Shown here in pieces: positions 3,597 to 26,273 of a stretch of DNA of 38,847 nt; the first letter of the stretch is position 1; each line of letters opens with the position of its first letter. The DNA lies in the NCBI GenBank assembly GCA_002869145.1, contig PKTM01000018.1, forward strand, positions 1 through 38,847, in the 5' to 3' direction. A model generated the notes under the pieces. The model ran no database searches, was not told the origin of the DNA, and was given only the letters and a program-made list of their open reading frames with translations. The translations under genes were made by a program, and so were the position numbers. The DNA comes from Denitrovibrio sp. (GTDB lineage Bacteria > Chrysiogenota > Deferribacteres > Deferribacterales > Geovibrionaceae).

Positions 3597-3647
3597 TTGT
3601 CAGATTATTAAACTATTCTTTTGAATAAAAAGCCAATGCGGGAGTTA

Positions 3648-3680
3648 GGCGGGGCAGTAAATGTCCCGCCTTTCTATTTT
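3648..3680. terminator. Bidirectional intrinsic terminator between adhesin and GntR gene
   Basis: The arms GGCGGGGCA (3648-3656) and TGTCCCGCC (3662-3670) pair over 9 bp with one G-T wobble around a 5-base loop, followed by TTTCTATTTT. It lies between two convergent genes, so it can serve the adhesin on the plus strand and the lactate operon on the minus strand. Confidence 0.85.
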
Positions 3681-3684
3681 AAGG

Positions 3685-4398: not shown

Positions 4399-4400
4399 TT

Positions 4401-7007: not shown

Positions 7008-7025
7008 AGAGCGACCTCTTAATAT

Positions 7026-7044
7026 AAATTGGTAATACCAATTT
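7026..7044. promoter_or_regulatory. GntR operator 1 (glcD side)
   Basis: AAATTGGTAATACCAATTT is a perfect palindrome with 8-base arms and a 3-base centre. It matches the FadR/LldR/PdhR-type consensus TTGGT-N3-ACCAA. It overlaps the deduced -10 of the minus-strand promoter, so repression in the absence of substrate is the simplest reading. Confidence 0.82.
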
Positions 7045-7068
7045 AGGTTATTAACAGGACATTGTCAA
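7040..7068 (-). promoter_or_regulatory. Predicted sigma70 promoter for the glcD-glcF-gntR operon
   Basis: On the minus strand, TTGACA (7068-7063) is a perfect -35, followed after 17 bases by TAAATT (7045-7040), a 4/6 match to -10. Operator 1 begins within the -10 and covers the start-site region. Confidence 0.65.
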
Positions 7069-7176
7069 TAAGAGGTGTTGAAAATATGGCATTTCGGTTG
7101 AAAGTCGTGAAAAATGTTTATTTTTAATGAACATACTGCAATTAATTTATCTGATTAGGGGGCAAGCATAAAGCGG

Positions 7177-7205
7177 TTGACGGGCAGGATTTGTTAAGTT
7201 AAACT
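7177..7205 (+). promoter_or_regulatory. Predicted sigma70 promoter for the lutC-lutBA operon
   Basis: TTGACG (7177-7182), 17-base spacer, TAAACT (7200-7205). Operator 2 begins at the next base, in the same relative position as operator 1 on the other arm, so the two divergent promoters are near mirror images. Confidence 0.65.
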
Positions 7206-7220
7206 ATTGGTAAGACCAAT
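7206..7220. promoter_or_regulatory. GntR operator 2 (lut side)
   Basis: ATTGGTAAGACCAAT is a perfect palindrome with 6-base arms and centre AAG. It has the same core as operator 1, centred 178 bp away. It lies just downstream of the -10 and about 14 bases before the lutC start codon. Confidence 0.82.
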
Positions 7221-7233
7221 TTGAAGGGGTATT

Positions 7234-7719
7234 ATGAGTAATTTACTAGAACTGTTTTTAAAAAACTCTGAACTTGTCAGCAATATCAACTGTGTATGCA
7301 CAGAAACTGAGCTGACATATAAGCTAAACGCTGTGGACTCAGGCTTCCAGTTTGTTGACACTGAACTGGGCGGACAAAAACTAGTCAGATGCGAAATGAC
7401 AAAAGAGGGTTTTCCAGCCGCTCTTGTACAGGCGGACTTTGCAATCGCAGAGACAGGGTCTGTTGTCATTAACAGCAGTGACGAGCAGAAGAGGCTTGCC
7501 ACATGTCTGTGTGAGGATCTGCACGTTGTTTTCCCGCTGTCATGTTTAAAAGACAGCCTGCTCGATATAGCTGATTATATGCAGGAGATGACATCTGATG
7601 ATGCCTCTTTCATAGCTTTTATGACTGGAGCCAGCAGAACGGCGGACATAGAAAGGGTTTTGACAATTGGAGTGCATGGCCCCGGTAAGATGTATGTATA
7701 TGTGGTAAAGGATGCCTGA
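7234..7719 (+). CDS. lutC: LutC-like LUD-domain lactate utilization protein
   Basis: 161 residues, shorter than typical LutC/LldG (about 200-240) because the N-terminus is reduced. The LUD-domain signatures ADFAIAETGSVV and GASRTADIERVLTIGVHGP are intact. LutC is a subunit of the LutABC L-lactate oxidation complex and carries no Fe-S cluster. The ATG is preceded by AAGGGG at a good distance, and the upstream bases are promoter and operator rather than coding sequence, so the short form looks genuine. Its stop lies within a few bases of the start of the fused LutB-LutA gene, so the two are co-translated. Confidence 0.88.
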   Translation: MSNLLELFLKNSELVSNINCVCTETELTYKLNAVDSGFQFVDTELGGQKLVRCEMTKEGFPAALVQADFAIAETGSVVINSSDEQKRLATCLCEDLHVVFPLSCLKDSLLDIADYMQEMTSDDASFIAFMTGASRTADIERVLTIGVHGPGKMYVYVVKDA

Positions 7720-7720
7720 T

Positions 7721-9832: not shown

Positions 9833-9840
9833 TTACCGAT

Positions 9841-9870
9841 AAGCGCAGTCAAAAGGCTGCGCTTTTTTTT
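9841..9870 (+). terminator. Intrinsic terminator after lutBA
   Basis: A 10-bp stem, AAGCGCAGTC with GGCTGCGCTT (one T-G wobble), closes an AAAA loop and runs into eight or more T. It separates the lactate operon from the glycine cleavage operon. Confidence 0.9.
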
Positions 9871-9961
9871 GTTCTGTTTTTGTAAATTGTTCTGAACACT
9901 CATCAACTTTTTTCTCGAAAATTAATAATGTATTTAACATTTTATTGAGGTATTTTTTCTG

Positions 9962-9985
9962 TATAATTGGTACTAGACACGTCTA
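9962..9985 (+). promoter_or_regulatory. gcv promoter -10 with adjacent palindromic operator
   Basis: TATAAT (9962-9967) is a perfect -10. No good -35 lies at 16-18 bp (only AT-rich matches), suggesting activator dependence or a weak promoter. TAGAC-AC-GTCTA (9974-9985) is an inverted repeat at the expected start site, a typical repressor position. No glycine riboswitch is seen in the short leader. Confidence 0.55.
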
Positions 9986-10010
9986 ATCATATATGCAAGA
10001 GGTGACATCT

Positions 10011-11099
10011 GTGGATAAAAAAACCGTCCTATTCCAGAAACATACGGATTTGAAAGCGAAGATGGTTCCTTTTGGCGGATGGGAAATGCCCATTCAGTAC
10101 GAAGGGATTATTGCAGAGACCGAGCAGTGTCGCAAGAGTGTTTCAGTCTTCGACACTTGCCACATTGGAGAATTCAGATTTAAAGGCAATATTGCGACTT
10201 CCGGCATAGAAAAAGCAGTATCTTTTTATATAGAGAAAATACCTGTGGGCAGATGCAAGTATGGATTTCTCATGAATGAAGACGGCGGCGTTGTTGATGA
10301 CCTTATAGTTTATCGTCTGGCAGAGGATGAGCTTATGATTGTTGTGAACGCTGCAACTTGTGAAAACGATTTTAACTACATGAACTCACTCCTTGACGGC
10401 TCATCAGAATTTGTAAATATTTCAGAAAAGATATCAAAGATAGACGTTCAGGGACCTTTTGCCAAAGATGTAATGAAAGACATCTTTGATGCTGATTTTG
10501 ACAACATGAAGTATTTTGGCTTTTCACACGTCACATTTGATGATAAGGAGATACTTATCAGCCGGACGGGCTACACAGGCGAGCTTGGCTATGAGATATA
10601 CTCTGATGTCTCACAAGCTGAAAAGATATGGGACAGCCTGCTTGCAGACGAGAGGGTGAAGCCTGCCGGACTTGGTGCAAGGGACATTCTACGGTTAGAG
10701 GTCGGGCTCTCTCTTTACGGTCAGGAGCTGGACGAAAACATAACACCTGTGGAGGCCGGATTGCCGTTTTTTGTCACTTTTGACAAAGACTTTATCGGTG
10801 CAGATGTTTTAAGAAAGCAGAACGAGAATGGAACAGACAGGGTAAAGATAGCATTTGAGGCCGCAACCAGACGTTCACCCAGACACGGGTACGAGATACA
10901 TGCAGATGGAAAAATCATAGGCGAAGTTACCAGTGGTGTCTTCTCTACTATGTTGAAAAAAGGTATTGGGCTTGGTCTTGTGGAGACAGATTTCAGCAAG
11001 ACAGGCCAGCAGATAAAGATTGTCAGCGGTAAAACGCAGATAGATGCAAAAATATGTGAACTCCCCTTTTACAAAGGCGGCACAGCCAGAAAAAAATAA
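10011..11099 (+). CDS. gcvT: Glycine cleavage system T protein (aminomethyltransferase)
   Basis: 362 residues from GTG 10011. It transfers the methylene group of the aminomethyl-lipoyl H protein to tetrahydrofolate, releasing ammonia. Hallmarks are the N-terminal KMVPFGGWEMP, DVQGPFAKDVM, SRTGYTGELGYEIY and GLGARDILRLEVGLSLYG. The frame also has ATG 9993, but that codon lacks a Shine-Dalgarno and lies within about 20 bases of the deduced transcript start. AAGAGGTG (9997-10004) sits 6 bases before GTG 10011, and the protein then begins with the family-typical DKKTVLFQKH. It is the first gene of a seven-gene operon. Confidence 0.93.
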   Translation: MDKKTVLFQKHTDLKAKMVPFGGWEMPIQYEGIIAETEQCRKSVSVFDTCHIGEFRFKGNIATSGIEKAVSFYIEKIPVGRCKYGFLMNEDGGVVDDLIVYRLAEDELMIVVNAATCENDFNYMNSLLDGSSEFVNISEKISKIDVQGPFAKDVMKDIFDADFDNMKYFGFSHVTFDDKEILISRTGYTGELGYEIYSDVSQAEKIWDSLLADERVKPAGLGARDILRLEVGLSLYGQELDENITPVEAGLPFFVTFDKDFIGADVLRKQNENGTDRVKIAFEAATRRSPRHGYEIHADGKIIGEVTSGVFSTMLKKGIGLGLVETDFSKTGQQIKIVSGKTQIDAKICELPFYKGGTARKK

Positions 11100-11116
11100 C
11101 TTTGCGGAGATTTTAG

Positions 11117-11488
11117 ATGAAGATTTTTTACACAAAAGAGCATGAGTGGGTCAAGATCGAAGGTACAACAGGAACAATAGGTATCTCTGTTTATGCGGCA
11201 GAGCAGCTTGGTGATATAACCTATGTAGAGGTTCCGGATGTTGGTGAAGACCTTGTTAAAGGCGAGACTTTCTGCAGCGTAGAATCAGTGAAAGCTGCAA
11301 GTGACATTTATGCCCCAGTTTCCGGCGTTGTTACAGCCACAAACGACGAACTTATGGAAACACCTGAAATAGTAAATGAAAGTGCTGAAGACGAAGGCTG
11401 GATAGTCACTCTTGAGATCACCGATACTGATAGAGAAGGGCTTTTGACAGCTGAAGAATACGATGCATACCTCGAAACACTAGACTAG
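11117..11488 (+). CDS. gcvH: Glycine cleavage system H protein
   Basis: 123 residues, normal for GcvH. It is the lipoyl-carrying shuttle between the P, T and L proteins. The lipoylation lysine lies in CSVESVKAASDIYAPVSG, and the family C-terminal EDEGWIVTLEI is present. It lies 17 bases after gcvT and 8 bases before gcvPA. Confidence 0.95.
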   Translation: MKIFYTKEHEWVKIEGTTGTIGISVYAAEQLGDITYVEVPDVGEDLVKGETFCSVESVKAASDIYAPVSGVVTATNDELMETPEIVNESAEDEGWIVTLEITDTDREGLLTAEEYDAYLETLD

Positions 11489-11496
11489 GAAAAATT

Positions 11497-12816
11497 ATGA
11501 AATTCACACCACACACTATCGAGGAGACTGCTGAGATGCTTGAAACCATTGGTGTTTCGCAGGTCAGTGATCTATTCTCACCTATTCCGGACGAGCTGAA
11601 AACAGAGAAGTTTGACCTTCCTGTAGGTATCAGTGAGTCAGAGACAATGAAGATAATGAAAAAACTTGCCGGCAAGAATGATGCAGACATGGTCTGTTTT
11701 CTGGGTGGAGGAGTATACGAACACTTTATCCCCGCCGCAGTGGACGCTCTTTCGTCCCGACCGGAATTTTACACAGCATACACACCTTACCAGCCAGAGG
11801 CGTCACAAGGCACTTTGCAGGTTCTTTACGAATTCCAGACCATGATGTGCGAGCTTACAGGGATGGAAGCATCAAACGCATCCATGTACGACGGCGGAAC
11901 GGCACTGGCAGAAGCTGCTCTTATGGCGCTGCGTATATCAAAAAAACGCAGCAGAATAGTTTTAGATGGCTCTGTGAATCCAGTGCAGAAAGAGATAGTT
12001 AAAACCTATCTTAGTTTTCTGGAGGTGGAAGTCGCAGACATCGAATATGGTTCGGACGATTCAATAAACAACTATCTGGACGGGCAAACAGCAGGATTTA
12101 TTTTTCAGAACCCAGCTTTTGACGGAACAGTGAAAGACTATACAGAGATAAACGAAAAGATACACGCAGATAAAGCCGTATCTGTGGTTTCTGTTTATCC
12201 TATCTCTCTCGGCCTCATAAAAACCCCCGGCGATATGGGATTCGACATTGCTGTAGGTGACGGCCAGTCACTCGGAAATCCGCTCAGTTTCGGCGGTCCA
12301 TATTTTGGTTTTATGACCACAACGATGAAACACATAAGAAATCTGCCGGGCAGGATTGTGGGCAAGACCGTGGACACAAAAGGGCGTGACGGATATGTTC
12401 TTACTCTTCAGGCCAGAGAGCAGCATATCAGAAGACAAAAGGCCACATCAAACATTTGCAGTAACCAGTCACTTTGCGCCATGAACGGGCTTTTTTACAT
12501 GTCGCTCATGGGTGAGAAAGGGCTTATGGATGCTGCCTCCCTCTGCAAGAGTAAGGCGGAATATGCCAAATCTGAGCTTGCAAAAGTGAAAGGCGTGAAA
12601 GTGGCTGATGGTGAGACCTTTAACGAGTTTGTTGTTGAACTTTCGGCAAAAGCGGAAGATGTTTGCCTAAAGCTTGCTGATAAAGGGATACTGGCGGGAA
12701 TTCCAATGAATAACTATATAAACGATGCTGAAAACAAGCTTCTTGTAGCTGTTACAGAGCTTCGGACAAAGCAGGATATCGATACACTGGTAAGTGAGAT
12801 AGGGGGTGCTTTATGA
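11497..12816 (+). CDS. gcvPA: Glycine dehydrogenase (decarboxylating) subunit 1
   Basis: 439 residues, the alpha chain of the split P protein found in many bacteria and archaea. With GcvPB it decarboxylates glycine using PLP. Recognised by the N-terminal IPDELK segment, YTPYQPEASQGTLQVLYEFQT, EASNASMYDGGTALAEA, GDGQSLGNPLSFGGPYFGF and EQHIRRQKATSNICSNQSLCA. The gene ends in a 4-base ATGA overlap with gcvPB. Confidence 0.95.
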   Translation: MKFTPHTIEETAEMLETIGVSQVSDLFSPIPDELKTEKFDLPVGISESETMKIMKKLAGKNDADMVCFLGGGVYEHFIPAAVDALSSRPEFYTAYTPYQPEASQGTLQVLYEFQTMMCELTGMEASNASMYDGGTALAEAALMALRISKKRSRIVLDGSVNPVQKEIVKTYLSFLEVEVADIEYGSDDSINNYLDGQTAGFIFQNPAFDGTVKDYTEINEKIHADKAVSVVSVYPISLGLIKTPGDMGFDIAVGDGQSLGNPLSFGGPYFGFMTTTMKHIRNLPGRIVGKTVDTKGRDGYVLTLQAREQHIRRQKATSNICSNQSLCAMNGLFYMSLMGEKGLMDAASLCKSKAEYAKSELAKVKGVKVADGETFNEFVVELSAKAEDVCLKLADKGILAGIPMNNYINDAENKLLVAVTELRTKQDIDTLVSEIGGAL

Positions 12817-14252
12817 GCGAACTTCTTTTTACAAAATCAGTGAAGGGCAGATGTGGTGCATCGCTTCCTGTAATGGATGTTTCAAAGGCTGAGATGTCAG
12901 ATTCGCTCAGACGGGCTAAACCCGCAGAGATAGGCGAATATTCGGAGCTTGACGTAGTGCGTCACTACACAAACCTCTCACTGAAAAACTTTTCAGTGGA
13001 TACTCATTTTTATCCGCTAGGCTCCTGTACCATGAAATATAACCCTAAGGTGTGTGAAAAAGCTGCAAGGCTGGACGGCTTTGGCTCTTTGCACCCTATG
13101 ATGCCAGTGTCCGGTGCGCTTGACAGATGTCAGGGCGCTTTGGAGATGATATTCGAGCTGGAAAAACATCTGGCAGAGGTGACTGGTATGGATGCTGTGA
13201 CCACACAGCCTCTTGCCGGAGCACACGGTGAGATGCTTGGTATTATGCTGATAGCTAGCTACCACAGAGCAAAAGGGAACAAAAAGAGATATGTGATAGT
13301 TCCTGATTCGTCCCATGGAACAAACCCGGCAACAGCGTCCATGATGGGGTACGAAATAATAACTGTCCCTACAGCGGACTATGGCGATATGGATCTGGAC
13401 ATATTCAGAGAGAAGATGAACGATGAGGTTGCGGCGGTTATGATGACCAATCCGAACACCCTCGGCGTTTTCAACCCATACATTAAAGAGATCAGCGATA
13501 TAGCACATTCATACGATGCACTGCTTTATTATGACGGCGCAAACCTTAATGCCATACTTGGAAAGGTTCGCCCGGGCGACCTTGGTTTTGACGTGGTTCA
13601 TGTGAACCTCCATAAAACCTACGCCACACCTCACGGTTCTGGCGGTCCCGGTTCCGGACCTGTCGGCTGTAAAGAGAAACTTATTCCGTTTCTGCCTAAA
13701 CCGGCTGTTGTTAAAAACGGCGAAAAGTTTGAGCTGAACACGAAAGGTGTGGATTCTGCACGCATAACATCATACTTCGGCAACTACGGAGTACTGGTGA
13801 AGGCGTATGCTTATGCGCTAATGATGGGCTCAGACGGGCTTCGCGATGTGGCTGAAAAGGCTGTGCTGAATGCTAACTATATGATGCACAGGCTGAAGCC
13901 GTACTATCACCTCCCATACGACAAAACATGCATGCACGAATGTGTCTTTTCTGCTTCGAAACAGGCGGAAAAAGGTGTTCACGCTCTTGATATAGCAAAA
14001 GCTTTGATAGACAGAGGTTTTCATCCGCCGACAGTCTATTTTCCGCTTATAGTTCCAGAAGCTATGATGGTGGAGCCCACAGAAACAGAAAGCAAACAGA
14101 CAATGGATATTTTTTGTGAAGCTATGATAGAGATTGCTGAAATGACAGAGAAAGATCCTGACAGCCTTCATGAGGCGCCTGTCACCAGACCTGTAACAAG
14201 GCTTGATGAAACACTTGCTGCCAGACAAGTGGATGTCAGATACAGTCGATGA
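12813..14252 (+). CDS. gcvPB: Glycine dehydrogenase (decarboxylating) subunit 2
   Basis: 479 residues, the beta chain carrying the PLP lysine in NLHKTYATPHGSGGPGSGPVG. Other signatures are FYPLGSCTMKYNPK, QPLAGAHGE and PDSSHGTNPATASM. It overlaps gcvPA at its start (ATGA) and the lipoyl transferase at its end, so the P-protein subunits should be made in equal amounts. Confidence 0.95.
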   Translation: MSELLFTKSVKGRCGASLPVMDVSKAEMSDSLRRAKPAEIGEYSELDVVRHYTNLSLKNFSVDTHFYPLGSCTMKYNPKVCEKAARLDGFGSLHPMMPVSGALDRCQGALEMIFELEKHLAEVTGMDAVTTQPLAGAHGEMLGIMLIASYHRAKGNKKRYVIVPDSSHGTNPATASMMGYEIITVPTADYGDMDLDIFREKMNDEVAAVMMTNPNTLGVFNPYIKEISDIAHSYDALLYYDGANLNAILGKVRPGDLGFDVVHVNLHKTYATPHGSGGPGSGPVGCKEKLIPFLPKPAVVKNGEKFELNTKGVDSARITSYFGNYGVLVKAYAYALMMGSDGLRDVAEKAVLNANYMMHRLKPYYHLPYDKTCMHECVFSASKQAEKGVHALDIAKALIDRGFHPPTVYFPLIVPEAMMVEPTETESKQTMDIFCEAMIEIAEMTEKDPDSLHEAPVTRPVTRLDETLAARQVDVRYSR

Positions 14253-15031
14253 CTAAATGGCGGCTTATTGATACTGGCTTTTTGAACGGATATGAAAACA
14301 TGGCACTGGATGAGGCTCTTCTTATTAATTTCAAAGAGGGCAGCAGTCCTGTGCTTCGTCTTTATGGCTGGGAACCTGCCGCAGTTTCTATAGGGCGGTT
14401 TCAAAAAATAAGTGACTTTTTGAACGCTGCTGAATGCACTGCCAGAAACATTCCGATAGTTCGACGTATAACAGGCGGGGGGATGATATACCACCACAAA
14501 GAGCTAACGTACAGCATAGTGGCAACGCCTGAACACCTCGGAGTTTCTAAAAAACCTGCTGATGCTTACCGGAAAATATGTGGTTTTCTTCTGGAATTTT
14601 ACCGCAGACTTTGGATGGAAGCTGATTTCGCTATGGATACTAAAGGCTGGCAGTTTGGCGGAAGGGAAAACTTTTGTTTTGCAGCAAACGAACAGTACGA
14701 CATTGTTATTAATGGTAAAAAAATAGGCGGGAACGCGCAGAGGTGGCTCAAAAATGCTGTATTTCAGCACGGCTCAATCCCTGTTGAGAACTGCATAGAG
14801 CAAGCATCCAGTCTGCTTATTTCTAAACCGGATAATATTTTAGAGAGTTCAACATCACTAAAAGAGCAGGGCGTTGATGAAACTTACAGGTATTTGTTTA
14901 CCCTTATGAAAGACTCATTTTTAGCCAAAACTTATGATGATGCGCTCACTGATGCTGAAAAAGCTACAATGAACGAGCTGCTGGAAACTAAATATAAACC
15001 AGATTCATGGAAAAATTATGAAGATCAGTAG
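14249..15031 (+). CDS. LplA/LipM-type lipoyl or octanoyl protein transferase
   Basis: 260 residues of the BPL/LplA/LipB fold. RRITGGGMIYHHKELTYS is the family RRxTGGGAVxH motif, and NGKKIGGNAQRW with FQHGSIP holds the conserved lysine region. A cysteine in ENFCFAANEQYDI occupies the position of the LipM catalytic cysteine (family pattern CFxxxxxYEI), so octanoyl transfer from ACP to GcvH, followed by sulfur insertion by the next gene product, is more likely than ATP-dependent lipoate ligation. I cannot exclude LplA. It overlaps gcvPB by 4 bases and lipA by 14 bases. Confidence 0.8.
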   Translation: MTKWRLIDTGFLNGYENMALDEALLINFKEGSSPVLRLYGWEPAAVSIGRFQKISDFLNAAECTARNIPIVRRITGGGMIYHHKELTYSIVATPEHLGVSKKPADAYRKICGFLLEFYRRLWMEADFAMDTKGWQFGGRENFCFAANEQYDIVINGKKIGGNAQRWLKNAVFQHGSIPVENCIEQASSLLISKPDNILESSTSLKEQGVDETYRYLFTLMKDSFLAKTYDDALTDAEKATMNELLETKYKPDSWKNYEDQ

Positions 15032-15854
15032 AAAACCTGAATGGCTGAATAAAAAGATAGATTTTAGAGCTCATCAGGAGATGAGCGTTATGCTGAAAGG
15101 GTTCAAACTGAATACTATATGCAGTGAAGCTGCATGCCCTAATATATCTGAGTGTTTTTCATGCGGCCGTGCGACCTTCCTCATCATGGGCACAAAGTGC
15201 ACAAGGGAATGCTCATTTTGTAATGTGTCAAAAGAGAAACCGGGCGAGCTTGATAAAGAAGAACCTGCCAATGTAGCAGAGGCTGTGAAAAAGCTTGGGC
15301 TTGCGCATGTTGTAATAACCAGCCCCACAAGGGATGACCTGTGTGATTATGGCGCAGGGCATTTTGCTTATACAGTTAAAGCTGTCAGAGAAGTTTCGCC
15401 GGAGACAAGGGTAGAACTGCTTGTACCGGATTTCAGAGGAGACTTAAAATCACTTGAAACAGTGGCTGAGGTGAAGCCGGATATATTCGGCCATAACCTT
15501 GAAACAGTAAGCAGGCTTTACCATATCAGAAAAGGTGCAGACTATCAGCTATCACTGAAACTGCTTAAAAATGCCTCAGAGATGGGCATGCTTACAAAAT
15601 CAGGCATCATGGCGGGACTCGGTGAAAAAGAAGATGAGGTCGCAGAGCTTATGGATGACCTTCGGGAAGCTGGGGTGGATTATTTTAGTATTGGCCAGTA
15701 CCTGCAGCCGTCCAGAAATCACTACGATGTTGCTGAATTTGTAAGACCAGAAATATTTGATAGATATAAAACACTTGCCATTGAAAAAGGTTTTAAGCAT
15801 GTTGAGTCTGCTCCCTATGTGAGGAGTTCCTACATGGCGGAGGAGTACAAATGA
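15018..15854 (+). CDS. lipA: Lipoyl synthase (radical SAM), slightly divergent
   Basis: 278 residues. It inserts two sulfurs into the octanoyl chain on GcvH. The auxiliary cluster motif CSEAACPNISEC (CX4CX5C), the radical-SAM motif CTRECSFC (CX3CX2C) and the C-terminal VRSSYMAEEY with its cluster-ligating serine are all present. Odd: the usually invariant SVDRDDLxDGGA stretch reads SPTRDDLCDYGA here, so this could be a specialised paralogue dedicated to GcvH. Its stop overlaps the lpd start (ATGA). Confidence 0.9.
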   Translation: MKISRKPEWLNKKIDFRAHQEMSVMLKGFKLNTICSEAACPNISECFSCGRATFLIMGTKCTRECSFCNVSKEKPGELDKEEPANVAEAVKKLGLAHVVITSPTRDDLCDYGAGHFAYTVKAVREVSPETRVELLVPDFRGDLKSLETVAEVKPDIFGHNLETVSRLYHIRKGADYQLSLKLLKNASEMGMLTKSGIMAGLGEKEDEVAELMDDLREAGVDYFSIGQYLQPSRNHYDVAEFVRPEIFDRYKTLAIEKGFKHVESAPYVRSSYMAEEYK

Positions 15855-17203
15855 ATAAATATGATGTGATTGTAATAGGCGGCGGCCCGGCAGGCTACAA
15901 GTCTGCTCTTAAGCTGGCAGGTATGGACAAAAAAGTCTGCATTATTGATAAAAGCAGCAAACACCTTGGTGGAACCTGTTTGAACCAGGGGTGTATCCCG
16001 GTAAAATCACTACTGAAGTCAGCAGAAGTTTATAAAACAGCAATGAATGCAGCGGAATATGGTGTTCAGACAGGCGAAGTGTCTTTCAGCCTGAGCGCAG
16101 TAAAACAGAAGATGCTGAAAAACATTGAACTCCTCAATAACGGTCTTGCAGGAACAATAAAGCGTGCGAAGATAGAGTTTGTTGAAGGGTATGGAAGTTT
16201 TGTAGATAAAAACACTGTGGCAGTAGGTGAAAAGCAGCTGCAGGCTGATTATATAATAATAGCAGCAGGTTCTGTTGCTTCTGAACTGCCTGATATAAAG
16301 CCAGACGGAGACAGGATTCTTACCAGCAGAGAACTGCTTATGAACGAGGAATTTCAAGAAAAACTACTTATAATAGGCGGGGGAGTTATCGGATGTGAGT
16401 TTGCAACATTTTATAACAGACTTGGGACTGCTGTAACTATAGTTGAGCCTATGGCTGAACTTCTGCCGAATGAAGAAGAGGAGACAGGGAAAGCTGTTAA
16501 GCGTGAATTCAAAAAAGCAGGCATAGTCTCTGAGACCAGTTCTCTGGTTAAGTCGCTCACATATGAAGAAGGCCGTGTTAGAGCGGTCATTTCCGGTAAA
16601 AAAGTTCGAGAGGACAGCTTTGATCTTGTTCTGCTTGCTGTTGGACGAAAACCGAATCTGAGCGGGCTAGAGCTTTCAAAAGCTGGTGTACAGACAGAAA
16701 GAGGGCATATAAAGGTTAATAAATATATGCAGACCACTGCGGAAAATATATATAGCGCCGGTGATGCGGCAGATGGCTGGATGCTTGCTCATTCTGCATA
16801 TGATGAGGGTATGTGTGCGGCTAAGAACATTGTATACGGCAATAAATACATGCCTGAACGCACTGCTGTACCGAGGGTTGTTTATTGCAGTCCGGAAGTT
16901 GGAGCGGCAGGACTCACAGAAGAACAGGCTGCAGATAAATATGAGATAGAAGTTTATAAAACTCTCTTTAAACCTAACGCAAAAGCTCTTATAGAGGGAG
17001 CAGGCGAGGGGTTTGTAAAGGTGATCTCAGATAAAAAATCAGGGGTTGTTCTTGGTGCTTGTGTTGTGGGCAAATCTGCAACGGAGCTCATTCATGAGTT
17101 CATACCTGTGATAAAAAACAAACTCACCGTAAGTGACCTTGCAGGCTGTGTGCATGGTCATCCAACTCTCAGCGAGACAGTATGGGAAACTTTGTTAAGC
17201 TGA
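15851..17203 (+). CDS. lpdA: Dihydrolipoamide dehydrogenase (glycine cleavage L protein)
   Basis: 450 residues. It reoxidises the dihydrolipoyl H protein with NAD. It has the N-terminal FAD site VIGGGPAGYKSA, the redox disulfide GGTCLNQGCIPVKSLL, the NAD-binding LLIIGGGVIGCEFA, and the C-terminal active-site HGHPTLSETVWE with its His-Glu pair. The usual GCIPSK is GCIPVK. It is the last gene of the glycine cleavage operon. No convincing intrinsic terminator follows it. Confidence 0.93.
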   Translation: MNKYDVIVIGGGPAGYKSALKLAGMDKKVCIIDKSSKHLGGTCLNQGCIPVKSLLKSAEVYKTAMNAAEYGVQTGEVSFSLSAVKQKMLKNIELLNNGLAGTIKRAKIEFVEGYGSFVDKNTVAVGEKQLQADYIIIAAGSVASELPDIKPDGDRILTSRELLMNEEFQEKLLIIGGGVIGCEFATFYNRLGTAVTIVEPMAELLPNEEEETGKAVKREFKKAGIVSETSSLVKSLTYEEGRVRAVISGKKVREDSFDLVLLAVGRKPNLSGLELSKAGVQTERGHIKVNKYMQTTAENIYSAGDAADGWMLAHSAYDEGMCAAKNIVYGNKYMPERTAVPRVVYCSPEVGAAGLTEEQAADKYEIEVYKTLFKPNAKALIEGAGEGFVKVISDKKSGVVLGACVVGKSATELIHEFIPVIKNKLTVSDLAGCVHGHPTLSETVWETLLS

Positions 17204-17491: not shown

Positions 17492-17513
17492 CTATTAATA
17501 TGTGAAGGTGTTT

Positions 17514-19589
17514 ATGTTTGTTATTAGTCTGCGAAAAGCATTCAGTGTGTTGTTATTAGCTCTGTTTGTTTTTCATTTTAATATAAAAGTGTACTCAGAA
17601 ACTTTATCCCTCCAGCCTCGTACGCTTAGCGATGTTATGGCGGATGTAGCTGCTACTAACCCGGAAATACTCGAAGCAATTCAGGTTTATGAAGGGGTTG
17701 TTCATGAGGTGGCTGCCGCCGAAAGTGGTTACAAGCCTAAAGTGGTCACCGATTTGTCCATAGGGAAACAGGTGACAGACGGTGTGGCATCCAACGAGGT
17801 TCGTCGCGATCTGACGGCAAGTTCAGCTTCATTATATGTTAGACAAAACCTTTTCAACGGAAACGGAACAGACAACCATGTAAATGAAACCAAAGCCCGT
17901 GTGAAAGCAGCCGCATATGAAGTGCTTAATGTTGCTAATAAGGTTTTTGAAGGGGTTGTAGAATCATACATAAACATTTTGAAAGAGCTTGCACTGCTGC
18001 AACTGAGTGAGAATAATATTTATACTCAAGCTCAGATACTGGAGCAGATAAAAGAGAAGACAGAAGCTGGTTTCGGCAGAGCCTCTGACCTTCTGAACGC
18101 TCAATCCAAGCTGGCGCTGGCCAGAGCAAACTTCATTTCACAACAGCAGAACCTTAAACAGGCATCAGTTAAATTTCATAAATATTACGGCAAGTTTTTA
18201 GACCCAAAACAGCTTGTGGAACCGACGGATTTATTCCCGTTTCCTGACAGAGAGGACGAAGTTGTTGATATGGCATTTAAAAGTTATCCGGCCATACAAG
18301 TGTCTAAGTATAATGTCATCGCAAGAAAATACACCATGAAAAGAACTGAATCGCTTTATTTTCCAAAGATAGATGCTGAGCTGAAAGCTAATTATTCTAA
18401 CAACACAAGCGGAGACGTTGGCGACACCACCAGTTATAGCGCTATGCTTTATTTCAACTATGAATTGTATGACGGTGGTCTGAAAAAAGCGGAAAAGCAG
18501 AAGAACTATTCACAGGTGCTGAAAGAGCATGAGAGAAGCTATATAGAAAGAAGAAATCTTAATGAATCTGTACGTCTCGCGTGGAATATAAAAGAGGCGG
18601 AAGACAGAAAATATGAATTTCTTCAGGAGCATATCGATTTAACTGAAAAAACCCTCGACGCTTTTAAGCAGGAATACGAGCTAGGGCGCAGAACTCTTCT
18701 GGAGCTTCTGGACATGGAAAATGAATACCAGAGAGCTCTTGAGGCTCTTACAGAATCAAAATATACATCCATGATAGCCCATTACAGGGTTATGTTTGTT
18801 ACTGGTGTGCTGCTTCAGAAATACAAAATGGATATTTTTGACAAGGTAGGCCTGAGTGACGAAGAAGTAGATTTCGCAACACTGGAAAAATACAGAGAGC
18901 TTGGCACAGACAGGGACATGGACAAGGTTAATGACAACTACGACAAATGTGATAATTCTATTTTAAACTCTAAAGCCGGTACTTACGGCTGTTTTGAAAA
19001 GTCTAACATAAAAGTTGGTTACACCAGACCGGACAAGATAGAACCTTACATTAAGCCTAAAGGTGCGCAGACTCTGGAAAGCTCAGAAGGTCTTGGCGAA
19101 CCTTTATCACTTGGTGAACCGGAAGGTCTTGGCGAGCCGTTATCACTTGGTGAGCCGGAAAGCCTTGGCGAGCCACTGGTTGCCGAGGAAGCACCTGAGC
19201 CTCAGGTTATGGAAATAGAAAATACAAAAGAAGCACAGAGTTTTAATTTTGACAACGTCACTTTTTTGCTGAATTCCAGCAGGCTTACCAAATCTTCTGA
19301 GAAGATAGTGAAAAAGGTAGCCGCTCAGCTTAAAACTATAGACAATTTTTCTCTGGAGATTATAGGCCATACTGACACATCCGGCAGAGCATCTTTTAAC
19401 AGAGAGTTGTCTGCCGAGAGAGCTGACACAGTTTTGAAAAAACTAGCTAAAATGGGAGTAGACCCGGCCAAGATGAAGGCATATGGTAAAGGGGAGAACG
19501 AGCCTCTATACTCAAATGCCACCAGAGAAGGCAGGAAAAAGAACAGAAGGATTGAGTTTAGGCTTCAGCTAATAAACTATCAAAAATGA
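17514..19589 (+). CDS. TolC-like outer-membrane channel fused to OmpA peptidoglycan-binding domain
   Basis: 691 residues from ATG 17514, chosen because GAAGGTG (17504-17510) precedes it; the frame opens at GTG 17502, which lacks a Shine-Dalgarno. A signal peptide ends near KVYSETLS. Residues about 30-440 form the TolC-type outer membrane factor with long coiled coils (repeat starts such as TLSDVMADVAATNP and VEPTDLFPFPD; LLELLDMENEYQRALEAL). A thrombospondin type 3-like calcium loop follows (GTDRDMDKVNDNYDKCDNS), then a Gly-Glu-Pro-Leu repeat linker, then an OmpA domain (about 585-690) with IIGHTDTSGRASFNRELSAERA and GRKKNRRIEFRL. Function: outer-membrane pore of the type I adhesin exporter (LapE role), here tethered to the cell wall. 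In related clusters the OmpA protein can be a separate neighbour; here the two are one chain. Confidence 0.88.
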   Translation: MFVISLRKAFSVLLLALFVFHFNIKVYSETLSLQPRTLSDVMADVAATNPEILEAIQVYEGVVHEVAAAESGYKPKVVTDLSIGKQVTDGVASNEVRRDLTASSASLYVRQNLFNGNGTDNHVNETKARVKAAAYEVLNVANKVFEGVVESYINILKELALLQLSENNIYTQAQILEQIKEKTEAGFGRASDLLNAQSKLALARANFISQQQNLKQASVKFHKYYGKFLDPKQLVEPTDLFPFPDREDEVVDMAFKSYPAIQVSKYNVIARKYTMKRTESLYFPKIDAELKANYSNNTSGDVGDTTSYSAMLYFNYELYDGGLKKAEKQKNYSQVLKEHERSYIERRNLNESVRLAWNIKEAEDRKYEFLQEHIDLTEKTLDAFKQEYELGRRTLLELLDMENEYQRALEALTESKYTSMIAHYRVMFVTGVLLQKYKMDIFDKVGLSDEEVDFATLEKYRELGTDRDMDKVNDNYDKCDNSILNSKAGTYGCFEKSNIKVGYTRPDKIEPYIKPKGAQTLESSEGLGEPLSLGEPEGLGEPLSLGEPESLGEPLVAEEAPEPQVMEIENTKEAQSFNFDNVTFLLNSSRLTKSSEKIVKKVAAQLKTIDNFSLEIIGHTDTSGRASFNRELSAERADTVLKKLAKMGVDPAKMKAYGKGENEPLYSNATREGRKKNRRIEFRLQLINYQK
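19089..19178 (+). repeat. 36-bp tandem repeat in TolC-OmpA linker
   Basis: Two full 36-base units (19089-19124 and 19125-19160) and half a third encode repeated GLGEPLSLGEPE. The linker joins the TolC channel to the OmpA domain, and copy number could vary between strains and change its length. Confidence 0.85.
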
Positions 19590-19590
19590 T

Positions 19591-20250
19591 ATGTCAAAAA
19601 TTAAGTTTTACGCCCTTGCCGCTGCGATTTTTTTACTGAGTATCGCGGGAATCAGTGCTCAGCTCAAGTTTTATATACCTGAGACGGAGATGAATGCGTA
19701 CAGCAGTAAATATGGAGATATGGCGGTCAGAAGGGCTGAAGGACTTTTGACGTTGATGGACAGTATCATAGACGAAAAAGAGGACGTTAAGGTCATAAAA
19801 GTAAACAGCTTTTATAACCAGATTCCATATAAGTCGGACATGAAGACATGGGGTAAAAGTGATTACTGGGCGAGCCGTCTGGAGTTTCTTGGGGTTGGTC
19901 AAGGTGACTGCGAGGATTATGCGGTTTCAAAATTCCTGACGCTGCTTCAGCTTGGAGTTCCGGAGGAGAAGCTTTTTCTGACCTATGTTAAGGCGAAAGG
20001 TTATGCCGATGAAGCTCATATGGTAGTCACTTATTACAAGAAAAAGGGCACCGTACCCTTTGTGCTTGATAATTATATAAAAAAGATAATGCCCGCAACA
20101 CAGCGGAAGGACTTGTTTCCGGTATATAGCTTTACTGCGAACGATCTTTTCCTTCAGAAGCAAAAGGGGCTTGGTAAAAGAGTAGACCCGTCTCAGTCTA
20201 AAAATGTCAGCAAACTTAAGTCTGTTGACCTTGAGATAATGAAGAGGTAG
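19591..20250 (+). CDS. lapG: LapG-like periplasmic cysteine protease (BTLCP family)
   Basis: 219 residues with an N-terminal signal/anchor helix (about residues 5-23). The transglutaminase-like catalytic triad is C107 (in GQGDCEDYA), H143 (DEAHMVV) and D160 (VLDN). The spacing of 36 and 17 residues is very close to that of characterised LapG. D106 and E108 flank the cysteine where LapG binds the calcium it needs. LapG cuts the N-terminal retention module of a LapA-type adhesin and releases it from the cell surface. The gene starts 1 base after the TolC-OmpA stop, and 3 bases separate it from the lapD homologue that should hold it inactive. Confidence 0.9.
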   Translation: MSKIKFYALAAAIFLLSIAGISAQLKFYIPETEMNAYSSKYGDMAVRRAEGLLTLMDSIIDEKEDVKVIKVNSFYNQIPYKSDMKTWGKSDYWASRLEFLGVGQGDCEDYAVSKFLTLLQLGVPEEKLFLTYVKAKGYADEAHMVVTYYKKKGTVPFVLDNYIKKIMPATQRKDLFPVYSFTANDLFLQKQKGLGKRVDPSQSKNVSKLKSVDLEIMKR

Positions 20251-20253
20251 CAA

Positions 20254-22197
20254 ATGACTTTATTGAAGCAGATTCAGATATTCGTGGCTATACTGCTTGT
20301 CGCAACCCTTGCGATCGTTTTGAAAATTAATTTCGATAATACAAAAGAGTTTGTAAGAACCCAGCTATACTCTAACGCCAAAAATACTGCAAATTCACTC
20401 TCGCTTTCTCTCAGTTCCGTGACTGATGATAAGGCCACTATGACTACAATGATAAGAGCGATGTTTGACGGTGGATACTTCGAAGAGATCAGCCTTGTTG
20501 ATGCCGAAGGTGAGGTTGTAGAAAAAATATATCAGGAGCCAAAAATAGAGGGAGTACCTCAGATCTTTGTAGATTTTGTAAATTTTGAAAATGTACCTGC
20601 TGATGCACAGATATCCAGCGGCTGGTCGATATTCGGCACGCTTTATGTAAAAGGACATCCGGGGCTCTCATACATCAGACTTTACAACACTTTCAAATAT
20701 CTTAGTATCTCCTTCATTGTGATAGGTGTGGTTGCGCTCATTGTAACCTTTTGGGTGCTGAAGCTTATATTCAGACCTTTGAATGCTGTTCAGCGACAGG
20801 CAGAGGCCATAGAGAATAACGAGTTCATTATAAACGAAAACATCCCAAAAACACCTGAGATGAAGCAGGTGGTAACCACCATGAACTCTATGGTGGAGAA
20901 GGCACAGACAATTTACAACAGAGAGATAGAAGCTCTGAAGAATTATCAGGAGCTTTTATATAAAGATCAGCAGACCGGGCTTTATAACCGAAAATACTTT
21001 ATAAAACAGCTTAGCTTTTTTCTAGGATCAGATGACGCCAACGCAAACGGCGAAGTATCCATATTTTCATTTGAAGGGCTGGAGGATGCTATATCCGAGG
21101 CGGGGCATCAGGTTGTGAACGGATTTTTTAATAGCTGCAAAGATATTATTACGGATAAAACCAGCAGCTTCGGCAGAGCTGTGCCTGCCTTTTTGAACGG
21201 AAAAGAGTTTGCGCTCATCCTTCCGGGGGTTGAAGCGGAGAGTGCACTTAAATGTACAGAAGAAATTACCAGCGGTATTAATGAACTGATAGAGCAAAAT
21301 GAAGAGCTGAGTGGTGTTCTGAAGATTTGCTGCGGAACAGTCCCATACAGGTATGACGAAAAGATGGGGAATGTGCTTTCAAAAGCAGACTATGCTGTCA
21401 CTGTAGCAAAAACCCGTGATTCCGGTTATGTGGAGAGGTTCAAAGATGATGGCAGCCAGGTTGTGATGGGCAAAATGGAGTGGAAAAACATGATAGAGGA
21501 TGCGCTGGAGAACGGCAGGTTTATCCTTACATCCCAGTCTGTTGTGTCTGATATCGGCGAGCTTCATCAGGAAATCTATGTCAATATGCTGGACGAGGAA
21601 GGGGTTGTACAGAAGGCGGGCTTCTTTATGCCTATGGTTGTCAGCCTGAACCTTGCCAACAGCCTGGACAGGTATGTTCTGGAAAGAACAGTTGAGTTTC
21701 TCAGCACCCATAAAGATGACACTCTTGCCATAAATATAACTGATATGTTTCTGAATGACAGGGAATCATTTTCGTGGTTCAGAAAGCTTCTGGTATCTGC
21801 CAAGCATCTTGTGGACAGGCTTACTTTTGAAATATCAGACAGTGCTATAAAAAACCATCTTGAGATATGTCTTGACTTCGCCGGTCTAATAAAAGGGCTT
21901 GGGTTCACATTTGGCGTGGACAGGTTCGAGATGAGCCAGACTTCTCTGGAGAATCTTCAGCAGCTTAAACCTAACTATCTCAAGGTTGATTACGATTATC
22001 TGATAGACGCTGAGGCCGGAAAGGCAGCAGGATCACTAAAATCGCTTCAGACTATAACCGAAAGCCTCGGCATAAAGCTTATCGCGACTAAGATTGACAA
22101 CGACGATCTTAAACGTAAGCTTGAGGATAACAATATTAAATATTTTCAGGGCAGAGGTGTATCAGGCATCAACCCTCTGGTAAAAGACAATGAGTGA
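20254..22197 (+). CDS. lapD: LapD-like inner-membrane c-di-GMP receptor (degenerate GGDEF-EAL)
   Basis: 647 residues. TM1 (about 7-24), periplasmic LapD/MoxY-N domain (about 25-145) with W124 in SSGWSIFGTLYV near the position used by LapD to grip LapG, TM2 (about 148-170), HAMP (about 172-225), GGDEF-like domain (about 240-390) and EAL-like domain (about 410-645). Both catalytic motifs are lost: GGDEF reads NGKEF (315-319) and the EAL motif region reads EIYVN (440-444). It should therefore bind rather than make or break c-di-GMP. When c-di-GMP is high, LapD sequesters LapG and the adhesin stays on the cell; when low, LapG is freed. The end overlaps the exporter start. Confidence 0.9.
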   Translation: MTLLKQIQIFVAILLVATLAIVLKINFDNTKEFVRTQLYSNAKNTANSLSLSLSSVTDDKATMTTMIRAMFDGGYFEEISLVDAEGEVVEKIYQEPKIEGVPQIFVDFVNFENVPADAQISSGWSIFGTLYVKGHPGLSYIRLYNTFKYLSISFIVIGVVALIVTFWVLKLIFRPLNAVQRQAEAIENNEFIINENIPKTPEMKQVVTTMNSMVEKAQTIYNREIEALKNYQELLYKDQQTGLYNRKYFIKQLSFFLGSDDANANGEVSIFSFEGLEDAISEAGHQVVNGFFNSCKDIITDKTSSFGRAVPAFLNGKEFALILPGVEAESALKCTEEITSGINELIEQNEELSGVLKICCGTVPYRYDEKMGNVLSKADYAVTVAKTRDSGYVERFKDDGSQVVMGKMEWKNMIEDALENGRFILTSQSVVSDIGELHQEIYVNMLDEEGVVQKAGFFMPMVVSLNLANSLDRYVLERTVEFLSTHKDDTLAINITDMFLNDRESFSWFRKLLVSAKHLVDRLTFEISDSAIKNHLEICLDFAGLIKGLGFTFGVDRFEMSQTSLENLQQLKPNYLKVDYDYLIDAEAGKAAGSLKSLQTITESLGIKLIATKIDNDDLKRKLEDNNIKYFQGRGVSGINPLVKDNE

Positions 22198-24334
22198 AAA
22201 GGTAAATGTTGACCCTTTAATGCAGTGTCTGGTTATTCTGACCAAACTGAATAACAGTCCAGCAACAGCTGAAGCACTTTCGCACGGACTACCTCTTGAT
22301 CCGTCCGATATCAGGCGAAAGCTTTTTACGATGGAAGGTGGGAAAGCTAACTTTTCCAGAGCAGCAGCCAGAGCAGGCTTTAATGCCACGTTGGTGAAGC
22401 GAAAATTGAGCGCCATCCCAAACGTGGTTCTTCCGGCTATACTGCTTTTAAAGGATGATTCCGCATGTGTGCTGACTGCTCTTGATTCGGAATCCGGCAA
22501 GGCGGAGATCATTGTTCCTCAGATAGATGAATTTCCTCAGGAGATAGAACTTGAAAAGCTTGAGCAGGAATTTCTCGGCTATGCATTTTTCCTGAAAAAA
22601 ATATATATAGACAACAGACCAGAATACGAAAAAGAGGGAGCAGAGCACAATGAGAATTGGTTTTTTGGCACTCTCTGGCGCTTTAAAGGTATTTATACAA
22701 ATGTGATAATAGCATCACTGGTTATAAATATTTTTGTAGTTGTGGGGCCGATTTTTACTATGAACGTGTATGACAGAATAATCCCGCACAACGCAGTAGA
22801 CACTCTTTGGGTGCTGGCGGTGGGGATGTTTGTTATATACTCATTTGATCTGCTTCTGAAGTTTATACGGACTTATTTTCTGGAAGTCATCGCCAAAAAG
22901 AGTGATGTCATTCTTTCCTCTATGATATTTGAGCAGGCGCTGAATATTAAAATGAGTGAGAAACCTCGTTCAGTAGGTTCTTTTGCGAATAATATAAGAG
23001 ACTTCGACAGTATAAGGTCTTTTTATGCTTCGAGTGCTCTTGTGGCTTTTATAGACTTCCCTTTTGTGGTGATATTTCTGATGGTAATATTTTATGTGGC
23101 CGGCTATCTCGTGTTTGTGCCGGTTGTTATCATATTTGCAATCATAGCTTACGGGCTTCTGGTGCGGGGACCACTTCAAAGAAGCATCGAAAGCACTTAC
23201 GAATCATCATCACGTCGAAACGGTCTCCTCATTGAGTCGCTTTCTAATTTGGAAAACATAAAGTCTTTTAACGCCAGCAGTTCTGTTCAGTGTGGGTGGG
23301 AGGAGCGAACCGGGGACATAGCTGTTAAAAGTCTTAAATCAAGAATACTCTCGAGTTCGCTATCTACTGTTTCAGTATTTTTCACACAGCTTTCAACAGT
23401 GGCAATAGTCGTAACCGGCGTTTATCTTATACGTGCCGGAGACCTCACCATGGGGGGGCTGATAGCAACAGTTATACTCTCTTCGAGAACCATAGCGCCA
23501 ATGTCGCAGGTGGCTTCGCTGCTCTCTAACTACCAGCAGATGAAGACATCTCTCACAGCTTTGAACGACCTTATGAACAAAGATGTTGAAAGACCAGAAC
23601 AGAAAAGTTTTCTGCGAAGACCTGTTTTTAAAGGTGCAATATAGTTAAAGAACGTATCATTCAGCTATCCCGACGAGACCAATCAGGCTCTTCGTGACAT
23701 AAACCTTAAAATAGAACCGAAGGAGCGAGTGGGTATTGTAGGGCAGGTAGGCTCCGGTAAGTCAACACTCAGCAAGCTTCTGTTAGGTCTTTACGAGCCC
23801 ACCGAGGGTTCAGTTTTTGTAGACGGCATAGATATTCAGCAGATGGACCCCGCTGACCTGCGTCATAATATCGGCTATGTGCCTCAGGACGTAACACTTT
23901 TTTCCGGCACTGTGCGGGAGAATATCGTTTTTAAAGCACCTCATTCTGATGACGAGGCGATACTTGATGCGGTAAATATTGGAAACGTAAACGTCTTTAC
24001 AGACAAACACCCTATGGGGTTGGATCTTTTTGTGGGAGAACGTGGAGCTAATTTATCAGGCGGTCAGAGACAGGCTGTTGCTGTTGCCAGAGCAATGCTC
24101 GTAGACAGTCCTATTGTTCTTATGGATGAGCCGACAAACTCTATGGATTTTACCACTGAGGCGAAAGTCATTCAGAACCTAAGAAAGGCTACAGAGGGTA
24201 AAACAACAATAGTTATAACACATAAACCTTCTATCCTTGCCATTGTTGACAGGCTTATTGTGATGGAGGGCGGCCATATTGTTATGGATGGGCCAAAGAA
24301 CGAAGTGCTCCAGAAGCTGGGGAAAAACAGATGA
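22190..24334 (+). pseudogene. lapB: LapB-like type I secretion ABC exporter, interrupted by in-frame TAG
   Basis: Together 714 codons in one frame with a single amber codon, number 485 (23642-23644), between the membrane domain and the ATPase. Before it: an N-terminal C39-like domain lacking the protease cysteine motif (DPLMQCLVILTKLNNSPATA, as in LapB) and a six-helix transporter domain from about residue 160. After it: the nucleotide-binding domain starting LKNVSFSYP, with Walker A GQVGSGKST, signature LSGGQRQ, Walker B IVLMDEP and switch ITHK. The family consensus around the stop (GxIEFKNVSFSYP) has Glu, so GAG to TAG is the likely lesion. No other damage is seen. If real, adhesin export is lost unless the stop is read through or the downstream part is reinitiated (in-frame ATG 23729, which would lack the first ATPase strand). 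Confidence 0.88.
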
Positions 24335-25686
24335 CAGGCGATAACAGATCAAAATTCAAACGAAACAAAAATGTTCGCAAGCAGGACGTGGCTTATATGA
24401 AGAGCCTTAATGCTGCCGTGGTGCAGAAAAGTCCGGTGCGTATGTCGCTGGTTTTATATATTATAGCCGGGCTTACTTTTGCATTTATCTTCTGGGCAAA
24501 TGTGGCAGAAGTGGATGAGATGACGAGAGGGATGGGGCGTGTTATCCCTTCACGCCAGATACAGGTGGTTCAGAACCTTGAATGCGGCATTGTCGAAGAT
24601 ATCCTTGTAAGAGAGGGTGAACACGTCAACAAGGGTCAGGTGATGATCGTAATTGACGACACAGGTTTTGGCAGCTCATTCGAAGAGAGTAAAACCAGAG
24701 TAGTGGAATTGAAAGCAAAGCTTGTAAGGCTGCGTGCAGAGGCAGATGAAAAACCTTTCAAACCTGACAAAGAGCTTTTGGAAGAATTTCCTGAGCTGGT
24801 GGGTGAAGAGATGAATCTGTACAATCTTAACCAGTCCAAACTGAAGAGTGAGCTTGAAGTGCTTCAGCAGCGTCTGAAACAAAGACAGATAGAGCTTCAA
24901 GACACAAGGGCAAGGATAAAAAGCCTTAAAGAAAGTGTAGCACTCATTCAGAAAGAATATAAAATCACTAAGCCGCTTTTTGACAGAGGGCTAGTGTCAG
25001 AGGTTGAGTTTCTCCAGCTTCAGCAGAAGGAGATAGAAAACAAGAAAGAGCTGGATTCTATGGAAAATTCTATAGGTTCGGTCATCTCAAAGATAGAAGA
25101 GACAAGGAATATGATAAGTGAGACCAGACTGAAATTTCAAAGCCTTGCTCAGGAAGAGATTAATAAAACGCTGGCAGAGCTGAAAAGACTTAGCAACACT
25201 CAGGTTGCCATAGAGGACAGGGTGCAAAGAGCAAATGTAAGAAGCCCTGTGGACGGTACCGTTAACCAGCTTCTTGTAAACACCATAGGCGGAGTGGTTA
25301 AGCCGGGCATGGACATTCTGGAGATAGTTCCGGATGATGATGCTCTTTTAGTCGAGGCGAAGATAAAACCTTCGGATATAGCGTTTATATATCCCGGACT
25401 GAAAGCTATTGTTAAACTCACAGCGTATGATTATGCAATATATGGCGGTCTTGAAGGGAAGGTGGTGCACATAAGTGCTGACACTATTGTGGACGAAAAA
25501 CAGGAGCACTATTATCTGGTTCGTATCAAAACAGATAAAAGCTACCTTGGCAATGAATCAGAAGAGAAGGACATTATGGTGGGAATGACTGTAATGGTGG
25601 ACATTTTGACTGGCAAAAAGACCGTTATGCAGTATTTGATGAAGCCTATACTTCGTGCGAAATACAATGCATTGCGAGAGAGATGA
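24331..25686 (+). CDS. lapC: HlyD/LapC-type membrane fusion protein
   Basis: 451 residues: a short cytoplasmic N-terminus, one membrane helix (about 38-57), a biotinyl-lipoyl-like half motif (GIVEDILVREGEHVNKGQVMIVIDD), a long coiled-coil hairpin (about 115-285), the second half motif (VRSPVDGTVNQLLVNTIGGVVKPGMDILEIVP) and a beta-barrel domain. This periplasmic adaptor bridges the LapB-type ABC exporter and the TolC-like channel. It starts in a 4-base ATGA overlap with the ATPase part of the exporter gene, so the amber codon there could have a polar effect on it. Confidence 0.92.
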   Translation: MTGDNRSKFKRNKNVRKQDVAYMKSLNAAVVQKSPVRMSLVLYIIAGLTFAFIFWANVAEVDEMTRGMGRVIPSRQIQVVQNLECGIVEDILVREGEHVNKGQVMIVIDDTGFGSSFEESKTRVVELKAKLVRLRAEADEKPFKPDKELLEEFPELVGEEMNLYNLNQSKLKSELEVLQQRLKQRQIELQDTRARIKSLKESVALIQKEYKITKPLFDRGLVSEVEFLQLQQKEIENKKELDSMENSIGSVISKIEETRNMISETRLKFQSLAQEEINKTLAELKRLSNTQVAIEDRVQRANVRSPVDGTVNQLLVNTIGGVVKPGMDILEIVPDDDALLVEAKIKPSDIAFIYPGLKAIVKLTAYDYAIYGGLEGKVVHISADTIVDEKQEHYYLVRIKTDKSYLGNESEEKDIMVGMTVMVDILTGKKTVMQYLMKPILRAKYNALRER

Positions 25687-26273
25687 TGATTATAATATTC
25701 AGCAGGGATAAATTCCTGTGCGACAACCTTATTAAAACTTTCGAATCTGAGGCAGTCTTTTGCTCTGCAGGATTTGACGAGTTTAGGAAAAAAATGAAGG
25801 AGAAGTCTGGTGATGTGGTTATTGTAGATATAGCTAATACTGCTCCTTTTGATATTACAAAGCTTAAGTGCGGTTCAATTGTTCTTTCGGGTGTGCCTAA
25901 GTTTAATGAGGCTGTAAAGCTTATGCGGTTTGGAGTAAGAGGTTATGGAAACAGAGCTATGATGCCTGACAACATGAGACAGGTGGTGAACTCTGTGCGC
26001 TCCGGTCAGGTCTGGATGCCGCCATTCATAATAAGCAAACTAATATCAAACATGCCTGTGGGGGATTTGTCTGAGAATCAAACAGATGATGTTGAGTTTT
26101 CTGAAAGGGAATCGCAGGTTGTGAAGCATGTATCTTCCGGACTCAGCAACAAAGAGATTGCACAGGAGATGGGGATAACAGTCCGCACTGTTAAGGCTCA
26201 TCTTACATCAATATTTACAAAAACTGGTCTGAGAGACAGGGTTGCACTTGCTCTGAAATATAAGCAAGCCTGA
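25683..26273 (+). CDS. LuxR/NarL-type regulator with degenerate receiver domain
   Basis: 196 residues. The C-terminal HTH (about 135-195) is typical: FSERESQVVKHVSSGLSNKEIAQEMGITVRTVKAHLTSIFTKTGL. The N-terminal domain (about 1-115) has a receiver-like outline, with an aspartate in VVIVDIANT, but the acidic pair after strand 1 reads SRD and the conserved lysine is replaced (RGYGNRAM), so phosphorylation control is doubtful. It overlaps the adaptor gene (ATGATGA) and closes the lap operon. Such regulators often sit beside adhesin type I systems. Autoregulation through the palindromes at 17305-17408 is only a guess. Confidence 0.82.
   Translation: MMIIIFSRDKFLCDNLIKTFESEAVFCSAGFDEFRKKMKEKSGDVVIVDIANTAPFDITKLKCGSIVLSGVPKFNEAVKLMRFGVRGYGNRAMMPDNMRQVVNSVRSGQVWMPPFIISKLISNMPVGDLSENQTDDVEFSERESQVVKHVSSGLSNKEIAQEMGITVRTVKAHLTSIFTKTGLRDRVALALKYKQA

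Follow-up and report, generated by a model that had tools for sequence, protein, structure and literature searches.

A probable Lap-type surface-adhesin switch with a relaxed LapG site in one family of Deferribacterota

The locus analysed here raises the question of whether a bacterium of the phylum Deferribacterota holds and sheds a giant surface adhesin through a c-di-GMP-controlled switch of the LapD/LapG type. The window, that is, the whole stretch of DNA that was analysed, spans contig C4 from end to end (38,847 bases); the genome to which it belongs measures 2.88 Mb and is assembled into 29 contigs. The preliminary description of this sequence had proposed c-di-GMP-controlled retention and release of such an adhesin in what looked like a deep-branching anaerobe, a guess consistent with Deferribacterota, the phylum to which the relatives of its LapG assign it, close to Denitrovibrio. 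Comparisons were made with the genomes of the genus (three, including this one), with a survey of 51 Deferribacterota genomes (12 from the family of the window and 39 others), and with 192 genomes sampled from the class Desulfobacteria. The idea of a LapD/LapG-controlled adhesin is supported by genes, residues and co-occurrence, whereas the TAAG/PAAG site is absent and the exporter is not intact as assembled. We consider it likely that one Deferribacterota family possesses a Lap-type surface-adhesin switch in which the residue after the scissile bond is relaxed. In the open-access literature we found no report of a LapD/LapG-type switch in Deferribacterota; the present analysis places one there, with a clean pattern of co-occurrence within a single family.

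The lap operon and its interrupted exporter gene

The operon comprises the following genes, to which the position of the internal stop codon is added:

17502-19589, plus strand: TolC-family outer-membrane channel with a C-terminal OmpA domain, LapE-like (OEP 1.2e-41, OmpA 7.6e-20; TIGR01844 239 bits, cut-off 225)
19591-20250, plus strand: LapG-family periplasmic cysteine protease (Peptidase_C93 4.2e-16; NF045674 166 bits, below the cut-off of 320)
20254-22197, plus strand: LapD-family receptor, LapD_MoxY_N-GGDEF-EAL (NCBIfam LapD 326 bits, below the cut-off of 1020)
22190-24334, plus strand: LssB/LapB-type ABC exporter, interrupted (TIGR03375 896.9 bits when read through one TAG, cut-off 693.1)
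23642-23644, plus strand: TAG stop within the exporter reading frame, where relatives have GAA or GAG (Glu)
24331-25686, plus strand: HlyD-family periplasmic adaptor, LapC-like (TIGR01843 412 bits, cut-off 209)
25683-26273, plus strand: LuxR-type (GerE) transcription regulator, the last gene of the operon (GerE 1.9e-15)

These genes lie head to tail, with spacings of three bases or fewer or with short overlaps; the channel gene begins with GTG, and alternative starts are possible. The outer-membrane channel and the adaptor expected in the operon are both encoded, the former being additionally a TolC-OmpA fusion. The LuxR-type regulator gene, which overlaps the adaptor gene and had not been listed before, occupies the same position in every Deferribacterota lap operon read.

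The residues expected of a working protease and of a catalytically dead receptor were recovered, as the preliminary description had read them. LapG carries the full catalytic triad (C107/H143/D160), with the calcium-site acidic residues D106 and E108 flanking the cysteine; in its alignment to two solved structures of the family, 4u65_E (E 1.5e-34) and 4fgo_A, these catalytic and acidic residues are conserved, and the catalytic residues are likewise kept in the alignment of the genus. The LapD-like receptor is built of LapD_MoxY_N, GGDEF and EAL domains, and not of the dCache and HD-GYP domains of the Dvh type. Its motifs are degenerate, with NGKEF replacing GGDEF and EIY replacing EAL, and its periplasmic LapD_MoxY_N domain bears a Gly-Trp pair (W124). 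In known systems, a Trp of this domain serves as the docking point for LapG (PMC13090378). The Gly-Trp pair and the degenerate motifs recur in LapD of all 11 family genomes that carry the system. The NCBIfam LapG and LapD models are the best ones for the two proteins, yet their scores fall well under the curated cut-offs, as would be expected of distant homologues.

Although exporter, adaptor and outer-membrane channel genes are all present, the export system cannot be called complete, as had been claimed, because the exporter frame is broken in this assembly. The TAG separates residues 1-484 (22190-23641) from a nucleotide-binding part of 229 residues (23645-24334), at a position where G018 reads GAA and G019 and G021 read GAG. 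Among 14 strong exporter matches in the family, an internal stop occurs only in this genome, and the lap exporter is intact in the remaining genomes with the system except G027, in which a homopolymer frameshift truncates it. The Pfam scan gave no peptidase C39 match in the N-terminal domain of the exporter, consistent with the degenerate C39 domain of a LapB-type exporter that had been proposed.

One alternative is decay of the system in this strain: the nonsense codon would be real and the adhesin no longer exported through the lap exporter, a reading to which we give somewhat less than an even chance. It accords with the single-base change to a stop where relatives encode Glu, and with the next possible start (23729), which sits just ahead of the Walker A motif, so that translation restarting there would yield only part of the nucleotide-binding half. 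TAG is, moreover, an ordinary stop in this genome, because it terminates 6 of the 28 window genes, and its decoding as an amino acid was rejected for this reason. On the other hand, identity to the orthologues of the genus is 82-83% upstream of the stop and 84-87% downstream; since the latter part is as conserved as the former, and all other genes of the operon are open, the change is either recent, polymorphic or due to an error of assembly. Contig C28 also encodes another LssB-type exporter, which is intact. Activity of the switch in this strain is doubtful: the switch may no longer operate, unless the stop was introduced in assembly or the C28 exporter substitutes.

In G027 (L067:3425-8161), lapG and the exporter gene are both frameshifted, each inside a six-base homopolymer run, which makes sequencing error or slippage likelier than a biological change. 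The apparent internal stop of a further ABC gene (L012) is simply where that gene naturally ends.

Distribution, relocation and Desulfobacteria relatives

LapG, a retention adhesin and an LssB exporter are found as a set in 11 of the 12 family genomes, and the twelfth is devoid of all three; in G025, which is among the 11, the sole retention match is the weaker one of a second adhesin cluster, and the lap operon lies on a short contig. None of the remaining 39 of the 51 Deferribacterota genomes has LapG. In genera g2 and g4, the adhesin gene is found just downstream of the operon and convergent with it, wherever the contig permits a view. The distance between the two is about 14 kb in this genome, across glycolate/lactate oxidation and glycine-cleavage genes, and about 0.7 Mb in G018 (one contig, 3.22 Mb) if that contig is circular. 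Since the adhesin stands beside the operon in the sister genera and apart from it in the genus of the window, this distance is a local relocation. Between adhesin and operon, window positions 3685-9832 hold a glycolate/lactate oxidation cluster, in which a GntR regulator and GlcD/GlcF-like genes face the gene for the large subunit, at full length, of an LdhH-type L-lactate dehydrogenase (927 bits, cut-off 800).

A LapG match was also obtained in 21 of the 192 Desulfobacteria genomes, eleven of them at 57-63% identity and the others at 28-50%. LapG of these eleven forms one clade with the Deferribacterota LapG (support 100/100). The lap operons of the Desulfobacteria in this clade (e.g., L006, L134, L135 and L137) share the same six-gene order, with the TolC-type channel first and the LuxR gene last, and a convergent adhesin where the contig permits; they differ in belonging to another phylum, in the identity of LapG and in their cleavage sites, which are given below. 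An exchange of the operon between Deferribacterota and Desulfobacteria, in either direction, is plausible, the deep branches of the LapG tree being poorly resolved.

The probably split adhesin and its putative cleavage site

The adhesin gene is cut by the start of the contig:

3-3596, plus strand: C-terminal part of a giant adhesin, 1197 residues, with cadherin-like / tandem-95 repeats

Following it leftward was precluded, the window being the whole of contig C4, and the N-terminus was located by family search instead. The repeats occur at a single other place in the genome, the extreme end of contig C26, where they are 75-89% identical and where a reading frame opens at C26:221212 and is still open when the contig stops (C26:221212-223169). 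The N-terminal part of this frame matches the LapA retention module and is followed by the same repeat family as in the window adhesin. Against a cut-off of 50, the module is borderline in sequence (50.4 bits in a six-frame search, 46.3 bits in a whole-protein scan), and its predicted fold is a strong match. An AlphaFold2 model built from 11 relatives, with pLDDT of about 84-94 over residues 1-70 and low values beyond, matches the solved cell-surface anchoring domain PDB 5ix9 (76 of 76 residues; Z 12.7, against 5.0 for the next structure; Foldseek E 2e-5).

The adhesin N-terminus is most likely C26:221212-223169, the gene being split by an assembly gap within the repeats, with C26 joined to C4. 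That the C26 and C4 parts belong to two different adhesins is very improbable: the contig ends as read share no exact overlap, and the two congeneric genomes have different genes upstream of the adhesin, but the repeats occur at just two places of the genome, both open-ended (the C26 end and the C4 start) and in compatible orientation. Taking the two parts as one split gene, the proposed pairing of the operon with a distant adhesin holds, given the retention module and shared repeats on C26, the identical set of 11 family genomes with LapG and a retention adhesin, and their adjacency in two sister genera. A second type I system beside the adhesin, which would have spoken for another pairing, was not seen in the stretches read (the window, and C26:205000-223169 by tblastn with the lap proteins).

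The published LapG rule is [T/A/P]AAG, with the cut between the alanines (PMC13090378; PMC6890996), and Legionella RtxA is cut at 108-109 (PMC11264772). The TAAG/PAAG site anticipated at the adhesin N-terminus is absent here: behind the retention module, no di-alanine [T/A/P]AAG site is present in the genus, and all three of its adhesins read TATG in the same aligned column in which all seven adhesins of g2 and g4 with LapA-type modules read TAAG. The residues T, A and G of the site are invariant in the alignment of 11 adhesins. Desulfobacteria adhesins from the 57-63% LapG group read TAAG (four), TAVG, TALG, TAIG, TAFG and TSLG, and those from the 28-50% group read TAAG or PAAG where the site is clear. 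When the adhesins of the shared clade are tallied (19, one per genome, each paired with LapG by genome only), T is found in 19 of 19, A in 18 and G in 19, while the third position is A in 11, T in three, L in two, and V, I and F in one each, so that the published rule misses 8 of the 19. In the LapG tree, the protease of G121, a genome with the site TAVG, branches near that of G091, which has TAAG, so that the site residue shifts with little change of the protease.

We think that TATG is cut by LapG in the genus of the window, between its A and second T, because the variable residue follows the scissile bond and LapG models make no protease contacts past that bond (PMC13090378). On balance, these alignments favour, with some reserve, a substrate rule T-A-x-G for the LapG lineage of Deferribacterota and one Desulfobacteria clade, in which x would be free (A, T, V, L, I or F) and release would proceed without a di-alanine. 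Given that the residue after the scissile bond varies between fixed neighbours, the published motif probably needs widening; if the T-A-x-G rule is true, surveys by the di-alanine motif under-count LapG-controlled adhesins.

It is unlikely, in our judgement, that TATG escapes cleavage, which would leave the adhesin of this genus permanently anchored and LapG and LapD serving another substrate or persisting as relics. In its favour, the sites that have been tested by experiment carry a di-alanine, and cleavage is blocked once both alanines are replaced by arginine (PMC6890996; PMC13090378). Some retention adhesins may have lost the site, as a second, paralogous retention adhesin of the Desulfobacteria genome G175 (L137:14064-17264, minus strand) reads TEAG at the expected LapG position and may not be releasable. 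Against permanent anchoring, T, A and G are fixed in the three genomes of the genus, where solely the post-scissile residue differs; that position varies freely across the wider clade, lies where the models place no protease contacts, and is accompanied by a LapG with its catalytic residues kept.

The proposed switch, known systems and further type I loci

The mechanism proposed for this family is carried over by analogy from work on Pseudomonas, Vibrio and Legionella, and to it the present genomes contribute genes, residues, co-occurrence, a predicted retention fold and a conserved site. The adhesin would consist of an N-terminal retention module, the LapG site, long repeats and a C-terminal part, and would be exported through the ABC exporter, the adaptor and the TolC-OmpA channel. 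Export would stall at the folded retention module, which would stay periplasmic and hold the adhesin on the surface. When c-di-GMP is high, the catalytically dead LapD is expected to hold LapG by means of a periplasmic Trp loop; when c-di-GMP is low, LapG would be freed and could cut after the conserved TA of TA-T-G, so that the adhesin is shed.

A close parallel is the Lap system of Pseudomonas fluorescens (LapA, LapB, LapC, LapE, LapD and LapG), with which the present one shares a retention-module adhesin, the LapG triad and acidic residues, a LapD with periplasmic Trp and degenerate GGDEF/EAL, a LapB/LssB-type exporter, an HlyD adaptor and a TolC-type channel. It differs in reading TATG and not TAAG, in the fusion of the channel to an OmpA domain, in the LuxR gene that closes the operon, in the relocation of the adhesin within the genus and in the interruption of the exporter in this assembly. 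The Dvh system of the anaerobe Desulfovibrio vulgaris (DvhA, DVU1545, DvhD and DvhG; PMC13090378) likewise combines a LapG-family protease, large retention adhesins, a c-di-GMP receptor and type I export. DvhD, however, has dCache and HD-GYP domains and no Trp, in contrast to the LapD-type receptor found here, and the D. vulgaris sites fit [T/A/P]AAG (PMC13090378), unlike the TATG of this genus.

The window adhesin had been called the only visible large type I substrate, which is correct within the window; genome-wide, the LssB-type locus on C28 has its own candidate substrate. This second type I secretion locus (L018, G000:C28:101500-121000, positions 3592-15947) is devoid of LapG and LapD and encodes an exporter 50% identical to the lap exporter, an adaptor that carries a fused PAS domain, a paralogue of the LuxR-type regulator and a TolC-like protein. 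The candidate is the product of a divergent gene, a protein of 1334 residues with Asp/Glu/Thr/Pro repeats and no family match; the opposite strand of this gene is open too, over 1053 residues. Second giant adhesins are also encoded in G025 (L064:1442-13885) and G028 (L071:1649-12427), each adjoining its own LssB-type exporter and TolC-like gene; both match the retention module weakly, at 37 and 39 bits, respectively, and no TAxG site was seen behind that match.
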